This document shows positions 1 through 12,851 of a stretch of DNA of 42,361 bases, piece by piece (the first letter of the stretch is position 1; every line of letters begins with the position of its first letter). The position numbers were made by a program, and so were the translations under genes. The notes under the pieces are model-generated. The model saw only the letters and a program-made list of their open reading frames with translations. It was not told the origin of the DNA and made no database searches. Source of the DNA: an uncultured Cryomorphaceae bacterium (GTDB lineage: Bacteria > Bacteroidota > Bacteroidia > Flavobacteriales > Schleiferiaceae); assembly GCA_913049845.1 (NCBI GenBank), contig CAJWZE010000010.1:1-42361 (forward strand), in the 5' to 3' direction.

Positions 1-2088
1 TTCCTTAGTATGAAATACTTCATTACCCCAACGATCGAAAACAAAGAATTCGTAGCCTTCAAAGCCGACACCTTTGATTTCTAAACACTCATTTAGCCCG
101 TCACCATCTGGGGTAAACGCTTCCGGTATATAGAGGTAAAAGTCCGTTTCCACGGTAACCGTAATAGTGATTGAATCGATACACCCGAAGTCGCTTGTCA
201 CCACCTGTAAAACTTTATAATCACCCGAGCGTGCAAAATCGTACTCAAACGTTGGTCCAGTCAGAACAACACTGTCAATGTACCATGTCCAACTGACCTC
301 ATTTTGTGCTTTCTCGTTGAATAAAACTCTTAGAGGGACATAAGGATCGTTAAAATACTGAAAACCGGCGCTTGGTTGTGGCATATTGACAGCGAGTACA
401 CTGTCCATAAATAGTTCACCACATCCATCAGTTAAAGAGAATGTGTAAAATGATGAGTCCGTAATCGGCAATACTGTCCTAGGAATGTTGTTTGTCAAGT
501 TATCTAGCCACGTGAATACAACCGGATCTTCTCCACCGTAATAATATGGCACCAACATCGCAGAATCTCCCGGACATACTCGCACTGTATCTTTTTCGTA
601 TACAATCGGCTCGTATGGCTCAACAAAAAGATCCTGCTGTAATAATAGAGTGTCTCCACATTCGTCATAGAGTGTAAAGAATACCGTGGTATCTGTATTG
701 ACTTCTACATATCTAGTAAAGGTTATGGACGAATCTCCATGCCAAAATCCATAATAGTCTCCTTCGTGCGAACTCAAAAGAACAGAAAGTTGAATACTGT
801 CCCCCGGACAACTCACACTATCCGTTGTAGACGGTAATATCAACTCGCCAATCAAAGAATCCTTATCCCTAATGTAGTATGGAAAGCGACGAACAGGGTA
901 ATTGTAACAATCCGTGTATATATAATCTTGAATAATGACCAAGGTATCTATACCCTCAACAAGGTTATCATCGTACGCCCAAAATGTCAAAGTATCCGAA
1001 GTTTCACCAGGTGATAAGGTGATGGTATCTGGTAGTGTGGAGAAATCTAACCCTTCAATGACCGTACTTAATAGCGTGTCTACAGCAATCGGAATCTTCA
1101 TCTCTACGCTTAGGTTTACAGACCTAGAAAAAATAATATGGTTCTCATTACATCCCTCAACGATATAGTTATCATTAAAAGTATTTCCAACGTTCGTTGT
1201 ATCCACTACAGTAATCTCAGGACCTTTTAAGGAGCTCTGTTCTAAGAATACAGCAGAACTCAATGCATTATCACTGACATTGGAGAGCTTTAGTCGAATG
1301 GTGTACCATCCTCCACACTCCACCTCTGCCTTAGCAGTAAACTTGTCCGTGTAACCATCGAGTGTGGTGATGGAGCCGTTCGAAGCATTGTAATAAGTAC
1401 TGTGAGCGACAAAGTTTGGATTCGCAGAGGTACAGTTTGAGGCCGGATACGACCCAGAAGGGCTCCCAGAATTAATCGTATTTACTGCAATAGGTATAAT
1501 TGTTCCAGGGATGGTAGCAATATTACGGACTATGGTTTGTCCCGTAGGTGCAGTAGTACCATTGATGTAGCTTCCCTCCAAAAAGAAGCCAAAAACATCG
1601 TTAAAGTTGGAGCAGGTATATCCGTCATATTCGTGTGAACCGAAGCAGTAATTAAAGGAAATACTATCGGATTGGGCGATAAAGCTAAATTCGATTTCAA
1701 CCATATCCTTAATGGCATACCCTGAACTACCCAACTGTGTAAGTACACTGGCCAATTCTGTATCTGTAAAGGTCACATTGTTACCCGCGCCATTGGTGGA
1801 GGCAATAACGTCACTTGCGTTCTGTGCAGCAACCATGACAATCCCGCTTTGAATCGGAAAAGTAGTATCGTTCGACTGGAAATAACCAATCTGGTTTGTT
1901 GCCGACTGAGTTAGAGGCAATCCATTCTGGCCTGAATTATAAATGGACAACGTAGAGTCTACCAAGATGTTGGCTGCCATCCAATACGGTTTATTATAAT
2001 TTCCGCTTGAGCTAACCGTCATGCTAGGGGTTTGGGCGGAAACAAAGTACCCGATGAACAGTAAAAAGATGACCAATATCTTCCGCAT
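1..2088 (-). CDS. Choice-of-anchor L, T9SS type B sorting-domain surface protein (3' end cut by window edge)
   Basis: Reading the minus strand from the ATG at 2088-2086 gives an uninterrupted frame to base 1 (696 residues), so only the extreme C-terminus is missing. It opens with a Sec signal peptide (MRKILVIFLLFIGYFVSAQ). Residues about 20-260 resemble the choice-of-anchor L domain (YCFGSHEYDGYTCSNFNDVFGFF; paired Cys and many Ser/Asn). Several Cys-containing Ig/PKD-like segments follow, of the 'CPGDSA' kind. Residues 657-696 are a classic gliding-motility-associated C-terminal (type B) domain: AFTPDGDGLNECLEI, then a DRWGNEVF element. Proteins with this domain are exported across the outer membrane by the T9SS and stay at the surface or are released. 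SprA, encoded in this window, is part of that machinery. The specific function (adhesin or other) cannot be told from the sequence. The adjacent M20 gene is divergent. Confidence 0.85.
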   Translation of the reverse strand, partial: MRKILVIFLLFIGYFVSAQTPSMTVSSSGNYNKPYWMAANILVDSTLSIYNSGQNGLPLTQSATNQIGYFQSNDTTFPIQSGIVMVAAQNASDVIASTNGAGNNVTFTDTELASVLTQLGSSGYAIKDMVEIEFSFIAQSDSISFNYCFGSHEYDGYTCSNFNDVFGFFLEGSYINGTTAPTGQTIVRNIATIPGTIIPIAVNTINSGSPSGSYPASNCTSANPNFVAHSTYYNASNGSITTLDGYTDKFTAKAEVECGGWYTIRLKLSNVSDNALSSAVFLEQSSLKGPEITVVDTTNVGNTFNDNYIVEGCNENHIIFSRSVNLSVEMKIPIAVDTLLSTVIEGLDFSTLPDTITLSPGETSDTLTFWAYDDNLVEGIDTLVIIQDYIYTDCYNYPVRRFPYYIRDKDSLIGELILPSTTDSVSCPGDSIQLSVLLSSHEGDYYGFWHGDSSITFTRYVEVNTDTTVFFTLYDECGDTLLLQQDLFVEPYEPIVYEKDTVRVCPGDSAMLVPYYYGGEDPVVFTWLDNLTNNIPRTVLPITDSSFYTFSLTDGCGELFMDSVLAVNMPQPSAGFQYFNDPYVPLRVLFNEKAQNEVSWTWYIDSVVLTGPTFEYDFARSGDYKVLQVVTSDFGCIDSITITVTVETDFYLYIPEAFTPDGDGLNECLEIKGVGFEGYEFFVFDRWGNEVFHTKE

Positions 2089-2140
2089 TCCCGAATATAG
2101 AAAAATCCCCCGTTATAAGCCGAAGTTCGTTTGGCACGAT

Positions 2141-2148
2141 TAACTTTG
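2141..2148 (+). promoter_or_regulatory. Putative -7 box (TAACTTTG) of the M20 peptidase operon
   Basis: TAACTTTG fits the Bacteroidota -7 consensus TAnnTTTG exactly. It lies 27 bases before the ATG at 2176, which leaves a leader of about 20 bases. No TTG/TTTG -33 element is visible at the usual spacing, so the assignment rests on one box. It argues against a start at the upstream in-frame TTG (2131), because that codon would lie before the transcript begins. Confidence 0.45.
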
Positions 2149-2175
2149 GAGAACAATCAAATTAGCGACTTATAC

Positions 2176-3555
2176 ATGGACCCTAAATCCTTTATCGAAA
2201 GCAATAAAGATCGGCTACTCAAAGAACTGTTTGAGCTCTTGAGAATCCCTTCAATTTCTGCTGATCCGGCCTACAACGAAGATGTTGCGAAATGTGCTAC
2301 GGCTATTCAAGGGCATATGTCGACACTTGGACTAGAAAATGTGGAGGTCTTCCAGACCAGAGGACACCCTATTGTTTATGGAGAATGTATAGTAGACCCA
2401 TCTTTACCTACAGTTTTAGTGTACGGTCATTATGACGTACAACCAGCAGATCCGCACGAACTATGGGATACGGATCCATTCGAGCCCGTAATTAAGAAAA
2501 CTGAGATTCATCCGGAAGGTGCCATCTTTGCCCGTGGTGCTTGTGACGATAAAGGTCAGATGTTCATGCATCTTAAAGCTTTTGAAATTTTGAAAGCTAA
2601 TGGCGATGCTCCTTGCAATATCAAATTCATGATTGAAGGTGAGGAAGAAGTAGGTTCAATAAACCTTGAACCATTCATCAAAGAACACAAAGAAAAATTA
2701 GCATGTGATGTCATTCTCATCTCTGATACAGGAATGATTGCCAACGACGTCCCATCCATTACAACAGGACTTCGCGGTTTGAGCTATGTTGAAGTAGAAG
2801 TTACTGGACCAAACCGCGACCTTCACTCAGGGCTTTACGGTGGCGCAGTTGCTAACCCGTTAAATATTCTTGCACAAATGATTGGATCATTGCACGACAA
2901 AAATGGCGCAATCACCGTTGAAGGGTTCTACGATGGTGTTGAAATAGTAAGTGATGAGGGACGTGCTTTAATGGCAAAAGCACCGTTCTCGCAAGAGGCG
3001 TTCAATGACTCTATTGCCATTCCTTCTGGTCAAGGCGAAAAAGGCTACACTACTCCTGAGCGCACATCAATCCGACCGACATTAGACGTGAATGGAATGT
3101 GGGGTGGTTATATCGGAGAAGGTGCTAAAACTGTGATCCCTTCTAAGGCCTATGCAAAAATCAGCATGCGTTTAGTTCCTGGGCAAGACCCGGACGATAT
3201 CACTGAGAAATTCACCCAGCACTTTAAGGCGATTGCACCGAATAGTGTTAGTGTCAAAATCACACCGCACCACGGTGGATTACCGTATGTAACGCATACT
3301 TCCGATCCTGCTTATCAGAGTGCTTCAAAGGCATATAAAACTACCTTCGGGGTGCCAGCTTTGCCTGTTCGTTCCGGAGGCTCCATTCCTATTGTAGCAC
3401 TATTCGAACAAGTACTAGGTGCGAAAAGTATTCTAATGGGCTTTGGTCTTGATTCAGATGCCATCCATAGTCCTAACGAGCACTACGGCGTATTTAACTA
3501 CTTCAAAGGAATAGAAACCATTCCTTACTTCTATAAGTACTACGCGCAAAAGTAA
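2176..3555 (+). CDS. M20 family dipeptidase/metallopeptidase
   Basis: Encodes a 459-residue cytoplasmic di-zinc aminoacylase/peptidase of the M20 (carnosinase/CPG2-like) family, which cleaves dipeptides or short peptides. Visible metal and catalytic motifs are GHYDVQP (His85, Asp87), RGACDDKGQM (Asp124/Asp125), EGEEEVGS (Glu156-Glu157 region), SDTG (Asp184) and a C-terminal GLDSDAIHSPNE, where His is a likely ligand. The frame is open further upstream to a TTG at 2131. I chose the ATG at 2176 because the family starts near MDPKSFIESN and a -7 box overlaps the upstream stretch. It is the first gene of a tight plus-strand run: the next ATG is one base after its stop. There is no signal peptide. 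Substrate is not predictable beyond peptide-like amides. Confidence 0.9.
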   Translation: MDPKSFIESNKDRLLKELFELLRIPSISADPAYNEDVAKCATAIQGHMSTLGLENVEVFQTRGHPIVYGECIVDPSLPTVLVYGHYDVQPADPHELWDTDPFEPVIKKTEIHPEGAIFARGACDDKGQMFMHLKAFEILKANGDAPCNIKFMIEGEEEVGSINLEPFIKEHKEKLACDVILISDTGMIANDVPSITTGLRGLSYVEVEVTGPNRDLHSGLYGGAVANPLNILAQMIGSLHDKNGAITVEGFYDGVEIVSDEGRALMAKAPFSQEAFNDSIAIPSGQGEKGYTTPERTSIRPTLDVNGMWGGYIGEGAKTVIPSKAYAKISMRLVPGQDPDDITEKFTQHFKAIAPNSVSVKITPHHGGLPYVTHTSDPAYQSASKAYKTTFGVPALPVRSGGSIPIVALFEQVLGAKSILMGFGLDSDAIHSPNEHYGVFNYFKGIETIPYFYKYYAQK

Positions 3556-3556
3556 A

Positions 3557-5575
3557 ATGCCCAAGAATAGGCTCTCTAAATCTAAAAGTCTATACCTGCA
3601 GCAACATGCAGGTAACCCTGTTCACTGGCAAATGTGGTCGAGTGATTTATTAAGCGATAATTCTTCTGAAAACAAATTGATGATTATCTCGATAGGTTAT
3701 TCCTCCTGCCATTGGTGCCACGTAATGGAGGAAGAAAGCTTTGAAAATCATGATGTAGCTAAACTGATGAACACTCACTTTTGCGCTGTTAAAGTCGATC
3801 GTGAAGAACGACCGGATATCGACGCCCGTTATATGAATGCACTACAGATAATGACAGGGACAGGAGGTTGGCCGTTAAATATCATCGCACTTCCTGATGG
3901 AACACCGGTTTATGGAGGTACCTATTTTTCTCGGAAAGATTGGATGACTGTATTGACACAGGTTGCTGATTTATGGCAAACGGAAACAGAGCAGGTGCTT
4001 TCTTATGGCGCACAAATGCGAGAAGGGTTAGAGCAGATGATTGAATTGACCCTTAAGACGCAACCAAATTCCTTTCACACACAAGATTTCGAGGATGTTG
4101 TTGGGTTTTGGATGCGCACCATTGACCCAGTGAACGGCGGACCAAATGGCGCACCTAAGTTTCCTCTACCCTCAAATTATGCCTTCCTCTTGGATTATGC
4201 ATACCATACTAATGACTCTAAAGTTCTCGATTATTGTCTGCTTAGTTTAGAAAAAATGGCGCTGGGTGGTATTTTTGACTGGTTGCACGGGGGCATTACC
4301 AGATACAGTACAGACAGATTCTGGAAGGTGCCACATTTTGAAAAAATGCTGTACGATAACGGTCAAATCATGGGGGTTTTTGCTAAAGCATTTCGTGCCT
4401 CAACAAAAACTATCTTTTATACTGCAGCAACGTCTGTAGCTCAGTTTCTAGAATCTGAGATGAAACTTTCGAATGGGTTATATGCTAGTGCATTGGATGC
4501 AGATTCTACTACACCCGAGCACGCTCGAGAAGAAGGTGGATATTACACATGGACCTCAATAGAATTAGATAACCTCGAACTCGAAGAAAGGACTCTTTTT
4601 AATGACTATTTCGATATTACCCCCTATTCGGCCCGAGAAGGAAAATATATTTTACACCGCACACACGGATTAGATTTTCATTGCAAACAATGGGGCATCT
4701 CAATCACCAAAGGACTACAATTAGAAAACTCCTGGCATAAGACCTTGAAAAATGCCTCGAATGAGCGAATTCAAACGCATACTAAGCCCGTTAGAGACGA
4801 CAAGGCTTTATGCACCTGGAACGCCCAGTTAATATTGGGCTACTTCGAATTACACCTTGCCGCACCACAGGAAGGCTATATGGAAAAAGCGCTCGAATTA
4901 CTTAGCGCTATGAAAGAGCATATTTTGAAGGAAAGTACTATATTACACGAGTTCGGTGGTAATCAAGGATTTCTTGACGATCATGCTACCTTAGGCCTGG
5001 CCCTTCTCAAAGGATATGCATTAACGGGCAACGAAGACTATGTACTTGATGCACAAAAAGTCGCAGCCATTATTGATGCGAAGTTTTATAAAGAAGAGAG
5101 CAACTTCTATTTGTATGCTACCGGTGGTGATAATGCCTGGGAAGAAGTCATTGAAATTGAGGACAATGTCATCCCAAGCGCAAATTCTTACACCGCACAA
5201 TTCTTTTATGAACTCGGCTGCTATTCAGGGAAACGTAGCTGGATAAATCGCAGCACTGAAATGATAGAATCTATTCACGGAAAGGTCTTTAAGCACGGAC
5301 AAAACTTTTCCAATTGGCTTACCCTTGCACTGATGCAATGCTATGGCTCAAAGGAATTGGTCGTTGTTGGACCAAAGGCGCGGGAACTTTTAGGGGAATT
5401 GACAGAGAAAAACTATCGACCAAATACCATCTTTCTACAGAGTGAGCGAGATGGAAGATTACCCCTCACTCTAAACCGATTGAGTGATACATTAAAAATC
5501 TTCGTATGTGAAAATGGCGCTTGCAATCTACCTACCTCATCTTTAGAAGAAGCTGAGAAACTATGGAAGTTATAG
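3557..5575 (+). CDS. Thioredoxin domain-containing protein, YyaL/SPATA20-like (DUF255)
   Basis: A 672-residue protein of the family that joins an N-terminal DUF255 thioredoxin-like domain to an (alpha/alpha)6 barrel resembling N-acylglucosamine 2-epimerase or glycosidase folds. The family signature SCHWCHVMEEESF is at residues 50-62, giving a CHWC pair at Cys51 and Cys54, followed by VDREERPDID and the GTGGWPLN and PHFEKMLYDNGQ motifs typical of these proteins. The length is normal. No signal peptide, so cytoplasmic. The cellular role of the family is not settled. The gene follows the M20 gene by one base, and its last 13 bases overlap the reconstructed start of tag, so the three are probably co-transcribed. 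Confidence 0.9.
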   Translation: MPKNRLSKSKSLYLQQHAGNPVHWQMWSSDLLSDNSSENKLMIISIGYSSCHWCHVMEEESFENHDVAKLMNTHFCAVKVDREERPDIDARYMNALQIMTGTGGWPLNIIALPDGTPVYGGTYFSRKDWMTVLTQVADLWQTETEQVLSYGAQMREGLEQMIELTLKTQPNSFHTQDFEDVVGFWMRTIDPVNGGPNGAPKFPLPSNYAFLLDYAYHTNDSKVLDYCLLSLEKMALGGIFDWLHGGITRYSTDRFWKVPHFEKMLYDNGQIMGVFAKAFRASTKTIFYTAATSVAQFLESEMKLSNGLYASALDADSTTPEHAREEGGYYTWTSIELDNLELEERTLFNDYFDITPYSAREGKYILHRTHGLDFHCKQWGISITKGLQLENSWHKTLKNASNERIQTHTKPVRDDKALCTWNAQLILGYFELHLAAPQEGYMEKALELLSAMKEHILKESTILHEFGGNQGFLDDHATLGLALLKGYALTGNEDYVLDAQKVAAIIDAKFYKEESNFYLYATGGDNAWEEVIEIEDNVIPSANSYTAQFFYELGCYSGKRSWINRSTEMIESIHGKVFKHGQNFSNWLTLALMQCYGSKELVVVGPKARELLGELTEKNYRPNTIFLQSERDGRLPLTLNRLSDTLKIFVCENGACNLPTSSLEEAEKLWKL

Positions 5576-6138
5576 ATTCTCGATGTCCTTGGTGAAACGG
5601 TTCTGATTGTTATCAGGCATACCATAATTTAGAATGGGGACTTACAGTACGAGACGAGCAAAAGATGTTTGAGCTCCTTATTCTAGAAACTTTCCAAGCA
5701 AGACTTAATTGGATTACTATTTTAAACAAGCGGGATAATTTTCGCGAAGCCTTTTTCAATTTTGATGTAGATAAAATCGCTCAAATGGATGAAGACGATA
5801 TCGCTTATTTGATGCAAAATGCGGGAATCATACGAAACAGGCAAAAAATCAGAGCTGCTCTTCATAATGCTCATATGCTTAAAGGTGTGCACGATCGCGA
5901 CAAACGACTTGTAGAAATTCTTTGGAGTTATTTGGACGGAAAGCCCCTAGATATGAAGCGAACTTCTATTGAAGAACTGCCTGCCGTAAAGGCCTTATCG
6001 GTAAAAATTTTCGAAGACCTGAAGAAACTAGGATTTAAATCTATCGGTCCAAAAACGGTATATGCACATATGCAGGCCAGCGGAAAGGTTAATGATCATC
6101 TCGTAAGCTGTCCCGCTTACGACGATTGTCTAGAATAA
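5563..6138 (+). pseudogene. tag: DNA-3-methyladenine glycosylase I with in-frame TGA at codon 11 (nonsense-interrupted or recoded tag)
   Basis: Read from ATG 5563, the frame gives MEVIDSRCPW, then TGA (5593-5595), then NGSDCYQAYHNLEWG, and continues open to TAA at 6138. Together this matches Tag (about 190 aa), which excises 3-methyladenine in base excision repair. Cys8 and His21 have the 13-residue spacing of E. coli Cys4/His17, and the C-terminal NDHLVSC supplies the other zinc ligands. Glu42 and Trp50 correspond to E. coli Glu38/Trp46. Between the TGA and ATG 5665 there is no in-frame ATG, GTG or TTG. Initiation at 5665 would therefore give 157 residues lacking two zinc ligands and both pocket tyrosines (17, 20). 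The usual QAGLSW reads QARLNW here, a sign of drift. Most simply it is a recent nonsense mutation or a sequence error; readthrough is an alternative. Confidence 0.75.
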
Positions 6139-6801
6139 TTTCTTGGTTGATTTAAGGGCTACGAAATCCTTGAGGTATAAGGGCTCGAAATAAGCCACAT
6201 CTTCTTTCACCATGGAAGATGTATACAAGAAGGTTGCCATATCCTTTGCGCTTGGGTATGAGTTCTCAGCATAGGACCAGTGGGGATTAACATGCAATTG
6301 ACTCACTTTTTCAGCAGCATCGCCAATTACTTGTACTGACTGCTTAGCCAAATGCGGCCATGAATTTTCCGTAACGACAAGGGCTTCAACTTCAGAAGCC
6401 TTATGAAACACACCTTCGTTACGAACCCAATGTTGCGCGAATACCTCATCTCTACGCGCATCAATAACCGTAATAACATCATCTACATTTATATGGCTCA
6501 TATCAAAACATCCCAGCGTTGGGAGGCTGTATAAAGGCAACTTCGCTGCATAGCAAATACCCTTAGCTGCACTTACACCTATCCGTAAACCTGTGTAAGA
6601 ACCGGGGCCTTTACCAACGCATACCCCTTGGATGTCTGAAAAAGCAACACCGGCAGATTGCATACATTTTTGCACAATTAGGTGCAGTCGCTCACCGTGA
6701 ACGAATTTATCTGCACGTTCTGCGCTCCGGGCAATCACCCGACTATCAGAAACGATCGCAACACTGCAATTCTTTGTTGCTGTTTCTATGCAGAGAATCA
6801 T
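6130..6801 (-). CDS. tsaB: tRNA threonylcarbamoyladenosine biosynthesis protein TsaB
   Basis: 223 residues with the ASKHA-fold signature of TsaB: MILCIETATKNCSVAI at the N-terminus and GKGPGSYTGLRIG at residues 63-75. TsaB is the scaffold partner of TsaD (and TsaE) in making the t6A37 modification of ANN-decoding tRNAs, in the cytoplasm. Length and N-terminal half are typical. The C-terminal half is divergent, as is usual in the family. Its ATG overlaps the stop of the HlyD-type adaptor gene (ATGA), indicating translational coupling. Its 3' end overlaps the convergent tag frame by 9 bases, with no room for a terminator. Confidence 0.92.
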   Translation of the reverse strand: MILCIETATKNCSVAIVSDSRVIARSAERADKFVHGERLHLIVQKCMQSAGVAFSDIQGVCVGKGPGSYTGLRIGVSAAKGICYAAKLPLYSLPTLGCFDMSHINVDDVITVIDARRDEVFAQHWVRNEGVFHKASEVEALVVTENSWPHLAKQSVQVIGDAAEKVSQLHVNPHWSYAENSYPSAKDMATFLYTSSMVKEDVAYFEPLYLKDFVALKSTKKLF

Positions 6802-8045
6802 TTTTCTTCTTTGGATTTTATCGAAGCGCCGTTTTTGAGTTCTCTTGATACTGCGCTGTAGGGACCAACGACTATAGCTGTACTGTCCTCTACTCTCTCA
6901 AGTATGATGTATTCATCGTCTTGAATACCACTCTTGACTACCTGGACGCTAACCTTGCCTCTTTGCGGTACGAAAACCACCTCGAAACTTTCGTCTAAGT
7001 CCTCTGAGGAACCGTATCGCTTCGCAGTTGTACTAGTATCCTTACGTACTGAAACCGCTTGTATTGGTGCCACTAGTGCGCCTTTAACCTTGTTCGTTAT
7101 GATCTCAACGGTTGCAGTCATTCCAGGACGAAACGGATTTGCACCGTAGGTAGAACTCAGGTGTTCATAGCTGCTGTTGAGAATGCGAATCTTAACCTCA
7201 AAATTTGTCACCTGATCGGCCGAAGCACCAAGAGCAAGGTTTGCACTATTGGCAATTTCACTTACTATACCCTCGAATTTTTCACCCAAGTAGGCATCTA
7301 ACTCAATGTAGGCCGTATCGCCAAGCATTAATTTTACAATGTCATTCTCATTGACCTCAACCAGAACTTCCATCGTATCTAGCTCAGCAATCCTTAGCAT
7401 TTCAGTTCCTGTCATCGTGGCTGTTCCCACCACACGTTCGCCAAGCTCAACATTTAACTGAGTAACTGTACCCGATATTGGAGCGACAATAGCGGTACGC
7501 TTTAAATTCTTATACGCTTCGTCAAGATTTGCCTCAGCACTGTGGAGGTTGTATTGCGCACTCTCTTGTTGCAATTCAGCCACGGTGATTGCACGTTGTG
7601 CAGCATCAAACTCCTGCTGAGAAATAGCGCCCTTCTCAAATAAGACTTTATTTCTATCCCACAATTTATTCGCTTCTATTAAAGTGGCCTTACTCTGTGC
7701 TAAGCTTGCTTTCGCACTATTTACTGCCGCACGAGACCTAGTAATGGCACTCTCATAAAGATCTGGGTTAATTTTAACTAAGAGTGTTCCTTCTTCTACA
7801 TATTGACCGTCTACCACATTGACCTCGGTTATTTCACCACTAACTTCAGGGCTCATCTTTACCTCGACCTCCGGTTGAATTTTACCACTTGCTGTTACAG
7901 ATTCTACAACAGTCCTCTTGTGAACATAACCTATCTCTACCTCTATGGCATTAGAGTTAGAATCTATCCAACCTTGCTTTTTTGCGACAATCACCATGAA
8001 AATCAGCAAAACAACGGGAACGATAATTTTATAATTCATTTTCAT
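6798..8045 (-). CDS. HlyD/MacA-type efflux periplasmic adaptor subunit
   Basis: 415 residues of a membrane-fusion/adaptor protein that links an inner-membrane exporter to a TolC-like channel. An N-terminal membrane anchor spans residues about 5-21. A barrel-sandwich half-motif (MSPEVSGEITEVNVVDGQYV) follows, then a coiled-coil hairpin from about 100 to 180, rich in Ala/Gln/Glu with repeated ANLDEA-like heptads. The second lipoyl half is APISGTVTQLNVELGERV. After it come beta-barrel and membrane-proximal domains with FRPGMTATVEI. The layout resembles MacA-like adaptors of MacB-type ABC or RND pumps. It lies between a tolC-like gene (12 bases upstream) and tsaB. No pump gene is in the window, so the exported substrate is unknown. 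Confidence 0.88.
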   Translation of the reverse strand: MKMNYKIIVPVVLLIFMVIVAKKQGWIDSNSNAIEVEIGYVHKRTVVESVTASGKIQPEVEVKMSPEVSGEITEVNVVDGQYVEEGTLLVKINPDLYESAITRSRAAVNSAKASLAQSKATLIEANKLWDRNKVLFEKGAISQQEFDAAQRAITVAELQQESAQYNLHSAEANLDEAYKNLKRTAIVAPISGTVTQLNVELGERVVGTATMTGTEMLRIAELDTMEVLVEVNENDIVKLMLGDTAYIELDAYLGEKFEGIVSEIANSANLALGASADQVTNFEVKIRILNSSYEHLSSTYGANPFRPGMTATVEIITNKVKGALVAPIQAVSVRKDTSTTAKRYGSSEDLDESFEVVFVPQRGKVSVQVVKSGIQDDEYIILERVEDSTAIVVGPYSAVSRELKNGASIKSKEEK

Positions 8046-12272: not shown

Positions 12273-12851
12273 TTAACGAATAAGAGTCAAAAAGATGAAC
12301 AAATATATCCACAAAAGGCCCACAAAATGCCAGTAGATTGAAGCAAGCTGAAGACCGTGATGATCTTCGTGTGAATACTTACCACCGTAGGCTTTTAAAG
12401 TCGTGTACAGTAATGAAATTATACCGCCACCTAGGTGAGCGAGATGGAAAAAGGAAATAGCGTACACCCAAGACCCTGCAGGGTTAGAGCCAGGCCCCGT
12501 AAAGAATACCTGACCATTAATCAATTCTACCCAGCCTCGTACCTGCAGAAATACAAAGACTACACCTAGTAAAATGGTCAACCACAAGTACGTTTTCAGC
12601 ATCCACGTATTCCCGGAGTTAATTGCTCTTTTACCAAGCCACAGAGTAATAGAAGAACCTATAATTGCTAAAGTGCTATGTTTGAAAGCTGTTGGTAATT
12701 CAAACACAAGCCAATTTCCAGATTCTACAAGTGTAGTTCTACTAACCACATAACCTGAGGTCAAGCCAGCAAAGGCCATGATAATTGAACCAATACCAAT
12801 CCACAAAAGCGGCTTAGATGCTTTTTTTCGTTGTTCTGCTAATGTTTCCAT
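12273..12851 (-). CDS. Cytochrome c oxidase subunit III, short paralogue
   Basis: 192 residues with five membrane helices of heme-copper oxidase subunit III. Recognisable elements are LWIGIGSIIMAFAGLTSGYV (residues 16-35), AISFFHLAHLGGGIISLLYT (about 131-150) and SIYWHFVGLLWIYLFIFL near the C-terminus, equivalent to the YWHFVDLVW of canonical subunit III. The length matches five-helix bacterial forms. A tandem pair of different subunit III genes (this and 11320-12240) is a common arrangement in Bacteroidota. Which of them packs in the main oxidase cannot be read from sequence. The start is 2 bases downstream of the cyoE stop, so the genes are coupled. Confidence 0.88.
   Translation of the reverse strand: METLAEQRKKASKPLLWIGIGSIIMAFAGLTSGYVVSRTTLVESGNWLVFELPTAFKHSTLAIIGSSITLWLGKRAINSGNTWMLKTYLWLTILLGVVFVFLQVRGWVELINGQVFFTGPGSNPAGSWVYAISFFHLAHLGGGIISLLYTTLKAYGGKYSHEDHHGLQLASIYWHFVGLLWIYLFIFLTLIR

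Follow-up and report, generated by a model that had tools for sequence, protein, structure and literature searches.

A tag gene interrupted by an in-frame TGA in an uncultured Schleiferiaceae bacterium, probably a recent loss of DNA-3-methyladenine glycosylase I

The tag frame and its neighbours

The window, by which we mean the whole stretch of 42,361 nucleotides analysed here, represents contig C10 in the draft genome (G000) of an uncultured bacterium of the family Schleiferiaceae, a genome of 1,785,730 bases in 106 contigs that is 85% complete with 3.3% contamination. On the forward strand, at 5563–6138, it carries what is probably a pseudogene of tag, the gene for DNA-3-methyladenine glycosylase I, as judged from a match to PF03352 and from a gene slot conserved in relatives. 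The frame runs from the ancestral ATG at 5563 to a TAA at 6136–6138, and its codon 11, at 5593–5595, is an in-frame TGA. PF03352 matches 5590–6114 over model positions 1–175 of 177 (E = 2e-64, 216.7 bits) with this one internal TGA, and since the match spans the TGA, the homology is real on either side of it. The first-pass annotation had claimed that the rest of the frame is open and that no usable start precedes codon 35, and our reading of the frame agrees: the codons from the TGA up to 5665 include no ATG, GTG or TTG, and neither a second stop nor a frameshift is found in tag. From the ATG at 5665 an open remainder of 157 amino acids extends to 6138 on the forward strand, covering PF03352 positions 26–175 only and lacking the N-terminal RCxW / YxxYHDxEWG segment. 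Read through its stop, the window thus matches the family profile over essentially its full length; an uninterrupted Tag frame that includes the N-terminal zinc ligands is not present, because of the TGA. We take the matching ligand residues in E. coli to be Cys4, His17, His175 and Cys179.

The likeness to the Tag family, for which structures 1LMZ/1NKU, 2OFI, 2OFK, 4AIA and 2JG6 are available, lies in this profile match, and the intact Tag protein of a related genome, G011, can be aligned over residues 7–184 of its 191 with the best of the solved chains. The window differs from the solved proteins in having a stop at codon 11, and it also differs from chains 2OFI, 2OFK and 1LMZ at codons 22, 47, 49 and 160, where these chains agree with the window's relatives.

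Upstream of tag lies a DUF255/thioredoxin-like gene (3557–5575, forward strand, PF03190), open throughout, of the YyaL type. The start of tag overlaps its end by 13 nucleotides, an arrangement that is identical in G007 and G011. Downstream, a convergent gene, also open throughout (6130–6801, reverse strand, PF00814), overlaps the end of tag by 9 nucleotides and is presumably tsaB rather than tsaD because of its product's length of 223 amino acids. The slot of tag between these two genes, overlapping both, is common to the nearest relatives. As an observation on the upstream gene, its counterpart in G012 (L046 12167–12274) is missing about 108 residues mid-protein relative to that of the window.

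Tag in the genus and family, and the loss of conserved residues

A Tag match is found in 22 of the 25 genomes of the genus, the window's own counted, and codon 11 is Cys in all 21 of the others; 20 of these frames are readable, and the last, in G003, shows Cys shortly before a run of N. The first-pass annotation had said that this position is often Cys, and had called for an alignment of orthologues. The 17 proteins that we aligned from other genera show Cys, Val, Leu or Pro here. Cys is thus fixed at codon 11 across the genus sample, yet the position tolerates other residues.

Tag itself is not universal. Across the family 62 of 88 genomes have a Tag match and 26 have none, and among the 56 genomes with completeness of 90% or more and contamination of 5% or less the figures are 39 and 17. 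Within the genus, no tag lies between the YyaL-like and tsaB-like genes of G009 (58% complete) and G020 (86% complete), where the two genes adjoin, the YyaL-like gene being recognised there by eye from its translation. G024 also appears to lack tag, but tsaB itself was not found there either.

Beyond codon 11, the window's frame has lost residues that other Tag proteins keep. We aligned 38 Tag proteins, consisting of that of the window, those of 20 genus loci (L002–L021) and those of the 17 best-scoring loci from other genera (L056–L072); the alignment omits the 23 other non-genus family genomes with a Tag match, and G003 because of the N run in its tag. Of 49 columns invariant in the 37 others, the window breaks four (D22N, G47R, S49N and F160S), a test that does not include the stop-free Tag genes of genus g17, which mostly score 206–240 bits, about the window's score. 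Among the 37 proteins themselves, 33 break no such column and four break one, so that the window fails to keep residues otherwise invariant in Tag. When the threshold is relaxed to 95%, it breaks 6 of 55 columns and the runner-up, L070, breaks 3 of 55.

A comparison along the window's own branch points the same way. At columns invariant among the outgroups (10 genomes for tag, 8 to 10 for neighbouring genes), tag has changed at 8 of 82 and 11 neighbour genes at 29 of 2049 (Fisher p = 5e-5). With the first 50 codons set aside, tag still shows an excess (4 of 55, p = 0.0097), and the altered residues include those at codons 47, 49, 143, 146, 160 and 175; four of the eight changes at invariant sites lie at most 115 bp from the TGA, which leaves some room for a local cluster of errors. 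Eight of the 19 private residue changes in tag hit invariant columns, a share close to the 46% that chance would give; it is higher than the 29 of 129 in the neighbours, but not significantly so (p = 0.064). Private nonsynonymous and synonymous changes number 22 and 17 in tag, 17 and 19 in tsaB, and 39 and 73 in the YyaL-like gene, so the nonsynonymous share in tag is only moderately above that in tsaB.

The ratio of nonsynonymous to synonymous rates along the window branch, omega, is 0.151 in tag versus 0.069 (p = 0.048) and is still below one (p = 0.015). These estimates cover seven of the twelve genes, with hlyD, tolC, cox3b, M20pep and cysQ outside, and the test is weak, silent sites being near saturation: even the tsaB-like gene does not differ significantly from one (p = 0.11). 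Our conclusions rest instead on the tests of invariant sites. On a naive and rough reading, about 9% of the branch spent at the neutral rate would yield the omega observed for tag. The frame, then, combines a disabling mutation with constraint that is relaxed relative to both orthologues and neighbours, a picture to which omega adds only weakly. Among the seven genes covered, the highest window-branch omega belongs to cox3a, one of two cox3-like genes (window 12273–12851), at 0.244 against a background of 0.056.

Loss, sequence error or read-through

How could a frame so well matched to Tag come to carry a stop at its eleventh codon? The first-pass annotation had offered three answers, namely recent loss, a wrong base, or read-through of the TGA. 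We consider the first of these probable: tag would be a young pseudogene that records a genuine and recent loss, with no read-through required. A recent loss of Tag is supported because other conserved sites have changed, because tag is missing from its slot in G009 and G020, and because 26 of the 88 family genomes have no Tag match. Against it stand the lack of a frameshift or second stop in tag and an omega that is still below one, so any loss must be recent. In this scenario a nonsense change at codon 11 would end translation after ten residues, a restart at codon 35 would yield a product predicted to lack part of the base pocket as well as the zinc ligands of the N-terminus, and purifying selection on the frame appears, on statistical grounds, to have relaxed along the window branch. 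On this reading the locus shows gene decay of an ordinary kind, against a modestly interesting background of lost repair genes.

A base-calling or assembly error in an otherwise functional tag is, in our judgement, unlikely, although several features of the data would suit it. The genome is a draft, with the contig number, completeness and contamination given above; tag has only the single stop and no frameshift; and private changes cluster near the TGA, with seven nonsynonymous and one synonymous between 5578 and 5708. However, an error at the TGA alone would leave the other changes in tag unexplained, and some invariant sites a long way downstream of it, at codons 143, 146, 160 and 175, have changed too, in keeping with the excess that holds beyond codon 50. 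We also compared 143,473 bases of the genome's own sequence, a sample of 8% of the genome, with open reading frames from stretches of G007 and G011. At an identity of 60% or above, 110 places aligned, covering 116.6 kb of the 143.5 kb. Stops occurred in eight of them: tag, two at last codons, three upstream of a probable true start and two in open reading frames judged spurious; no gene among the 110 was split by a frameshift. Since tag alone carries a stop inside a conserved domain, stop errors are uncommon in this 8% sample.

There is little chance, we believe, that unspecific suppression of the TGA, or reinitiation at 5665, maintains some useful product. The open frame downstream and a branch-wide omega below one are what such a product would lead one to expect, but the changes at invariant codons 47, 49, 143, 146, 160 and 175 are not, and a protein started at 5665 would lack the N-terminal zinc ligands.

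The remaining possibility, that a functional Tag is made by reading the TGA as selenocysteine, is suggested by the position of this codon exactly where the genus has Cys, the classic pattern of bacterial selenoproteins, in which UGA stands at a Cys position. The search for selA, selB and selC that the first-pass annotation proposed speaks against it. The window's genome has no match to selA, and its matches to selB, tRNA-Sec and selD all stay below cut-off, the best for tRNA-Sec reaching 42.2 bits, where the cut-off is 47, among the 111 of 134 tRNA candidates that were scored. Across the 25 genus genomes selA and selB (over cut-off) are found in one only, G015; selD over cut-off is found in none, and neither is tRNA-Sec, for which 111 candidates were scored in most genomes. 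To judge from scores and lengths, most of what matches selB, tRNA-Sec and selD below the cut-offs probably consists, respectively, of elongation factors of other kinds, of long-armed tRNAs of the usual sort and of proteins of the ThiL/PurM type. Nor does the sequence after the TGA fold unusually: a 61-nt segment from 5590 has a z-score of -0.17, with 81 of 200 shuffles folding at least as well, and an Rfam scan of 5400–6200 gave two matches, both at chance level. With Val, Leu or Pro at codon 11 of Tag in part of the family, and with conserved Tag residues lost elsewhere in the window's frame, we reject this reading. Even with the caveat that the genome is 85% complete, selenocysteine here is very unlikely, and we attach almost no probability to it; the annotation's suggestion of read-through by this route is contradicted, and a tempting but wrong candidate for a recoded TGA is thereby removed.

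General reassignment of TGA, which the first-pass annotation had dismissed, is indeed unsupported. Of the 32 open reading frames chosen as the main genes of the window, 22 end in TAA, eight in TAG and two in TGA, and because it ends these two, TGA serves as a stop here, though rarely.

The sole one of the 25 genus genomes with selA and a selB over cut-off deserves a remark of its own. In G015 the two genes are adjacent on C147 (L031 and L043), a contig of about 3.4 kb as inferred from L031 and L043, and yet this genome shows no tRNA-Sec over cut-off; the pair may have been gained recently, or may be contamination from binning.

AlkD and other alkylpurine repair enzymes

AlkD (PF08713), another alkylpurine glycosylase, also varies across the genus. 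It is found in 11 of the 25 genomes, including G003, G007, G011 and G012, and not in that of the window. When the alkD region of G011 is compared with contig C5 of the window's genome, two blocks match (query 16–3349 and 4090–7501) that lie 35 bp apart there, at G000:C5 24724–24758, flanked by the L112 and L114 blocks, and the 720-bp alkD gene (query 3371–4090) is missing between them, at a locus that is assembled. A tblastn search found no significant alkD remnant. Elsewhere, G004 lacks the gene at the same place, G007 and G012 match without a break, and G014 gives no match. In our tree G007 plus G011 form the sister group of the window's genome and G012 plus G014 branch outside, and because of these relationships the simplest reading is that alkD was lost in the window's lineage.

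Other candidates are few. AAG (PF02245) is found in none of the 25 genus genomes. Proteins of the HhH-GPD type number at most two per genome in ten genomes, with lengths that we take as those of Nth and MutY; the window's genome has one, of MutY-like length, and no AlkA-like HhH protein was found in it. Taking the genomes as they stand, many of them incomplete and one at 58%, ten have both tag and alkD, eleven tag only, one alkD only and three neither, the window's genome being among the last.

The window's lineage thus seems to have lost both Tag and AlkD, with tag decaying as a young pseudogene and alkD apparently gone from its syntenic site, and the two losses together would fit a family that has little need of alkylpurine glycosylases. 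It is possible, and we put it forward only tentatively, that this is a probably free-living Flavobacteriales bacterium without any known 3-methyladenine DNA glycosylase, as far as Tag, AlkD, AAG and AlkA-like HhH proteins are concerned. If true, it would mean life without base excision of 3-methyladenine, or excision by an unrecognised enzyme. More generally, our analysis points to a clade in which alkylpurine repair genes come and go and which, if this is confirmed, would offer a natural test of the need for 3-methyladenine repair in nature.

Repair-gene loss and genome reduction are treated in a review (PMC4285135, available part), and the likeness of our case to repair-gene loss in small genomes lies in a genome that measures about 1.8 Mb and lacks repair genes. 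It differs in that the window's clade loses Tag and AlkD, neither of which is mentioned in the available part of that review. We found no account of the window's tag locus among the papers found on Tag pseudogenes, on Tag and selenocysteine, on the zinc snap and 3-methyladenine, on streamlining and repair loss, or on Schleiferiaceae, nor in the available parts of PMC4285135 and PMC9266487.

The window's genome also encodes, at L079 5009–5443, a protein with the DNA-binding domain of O6-methylguanine methyltransferase.
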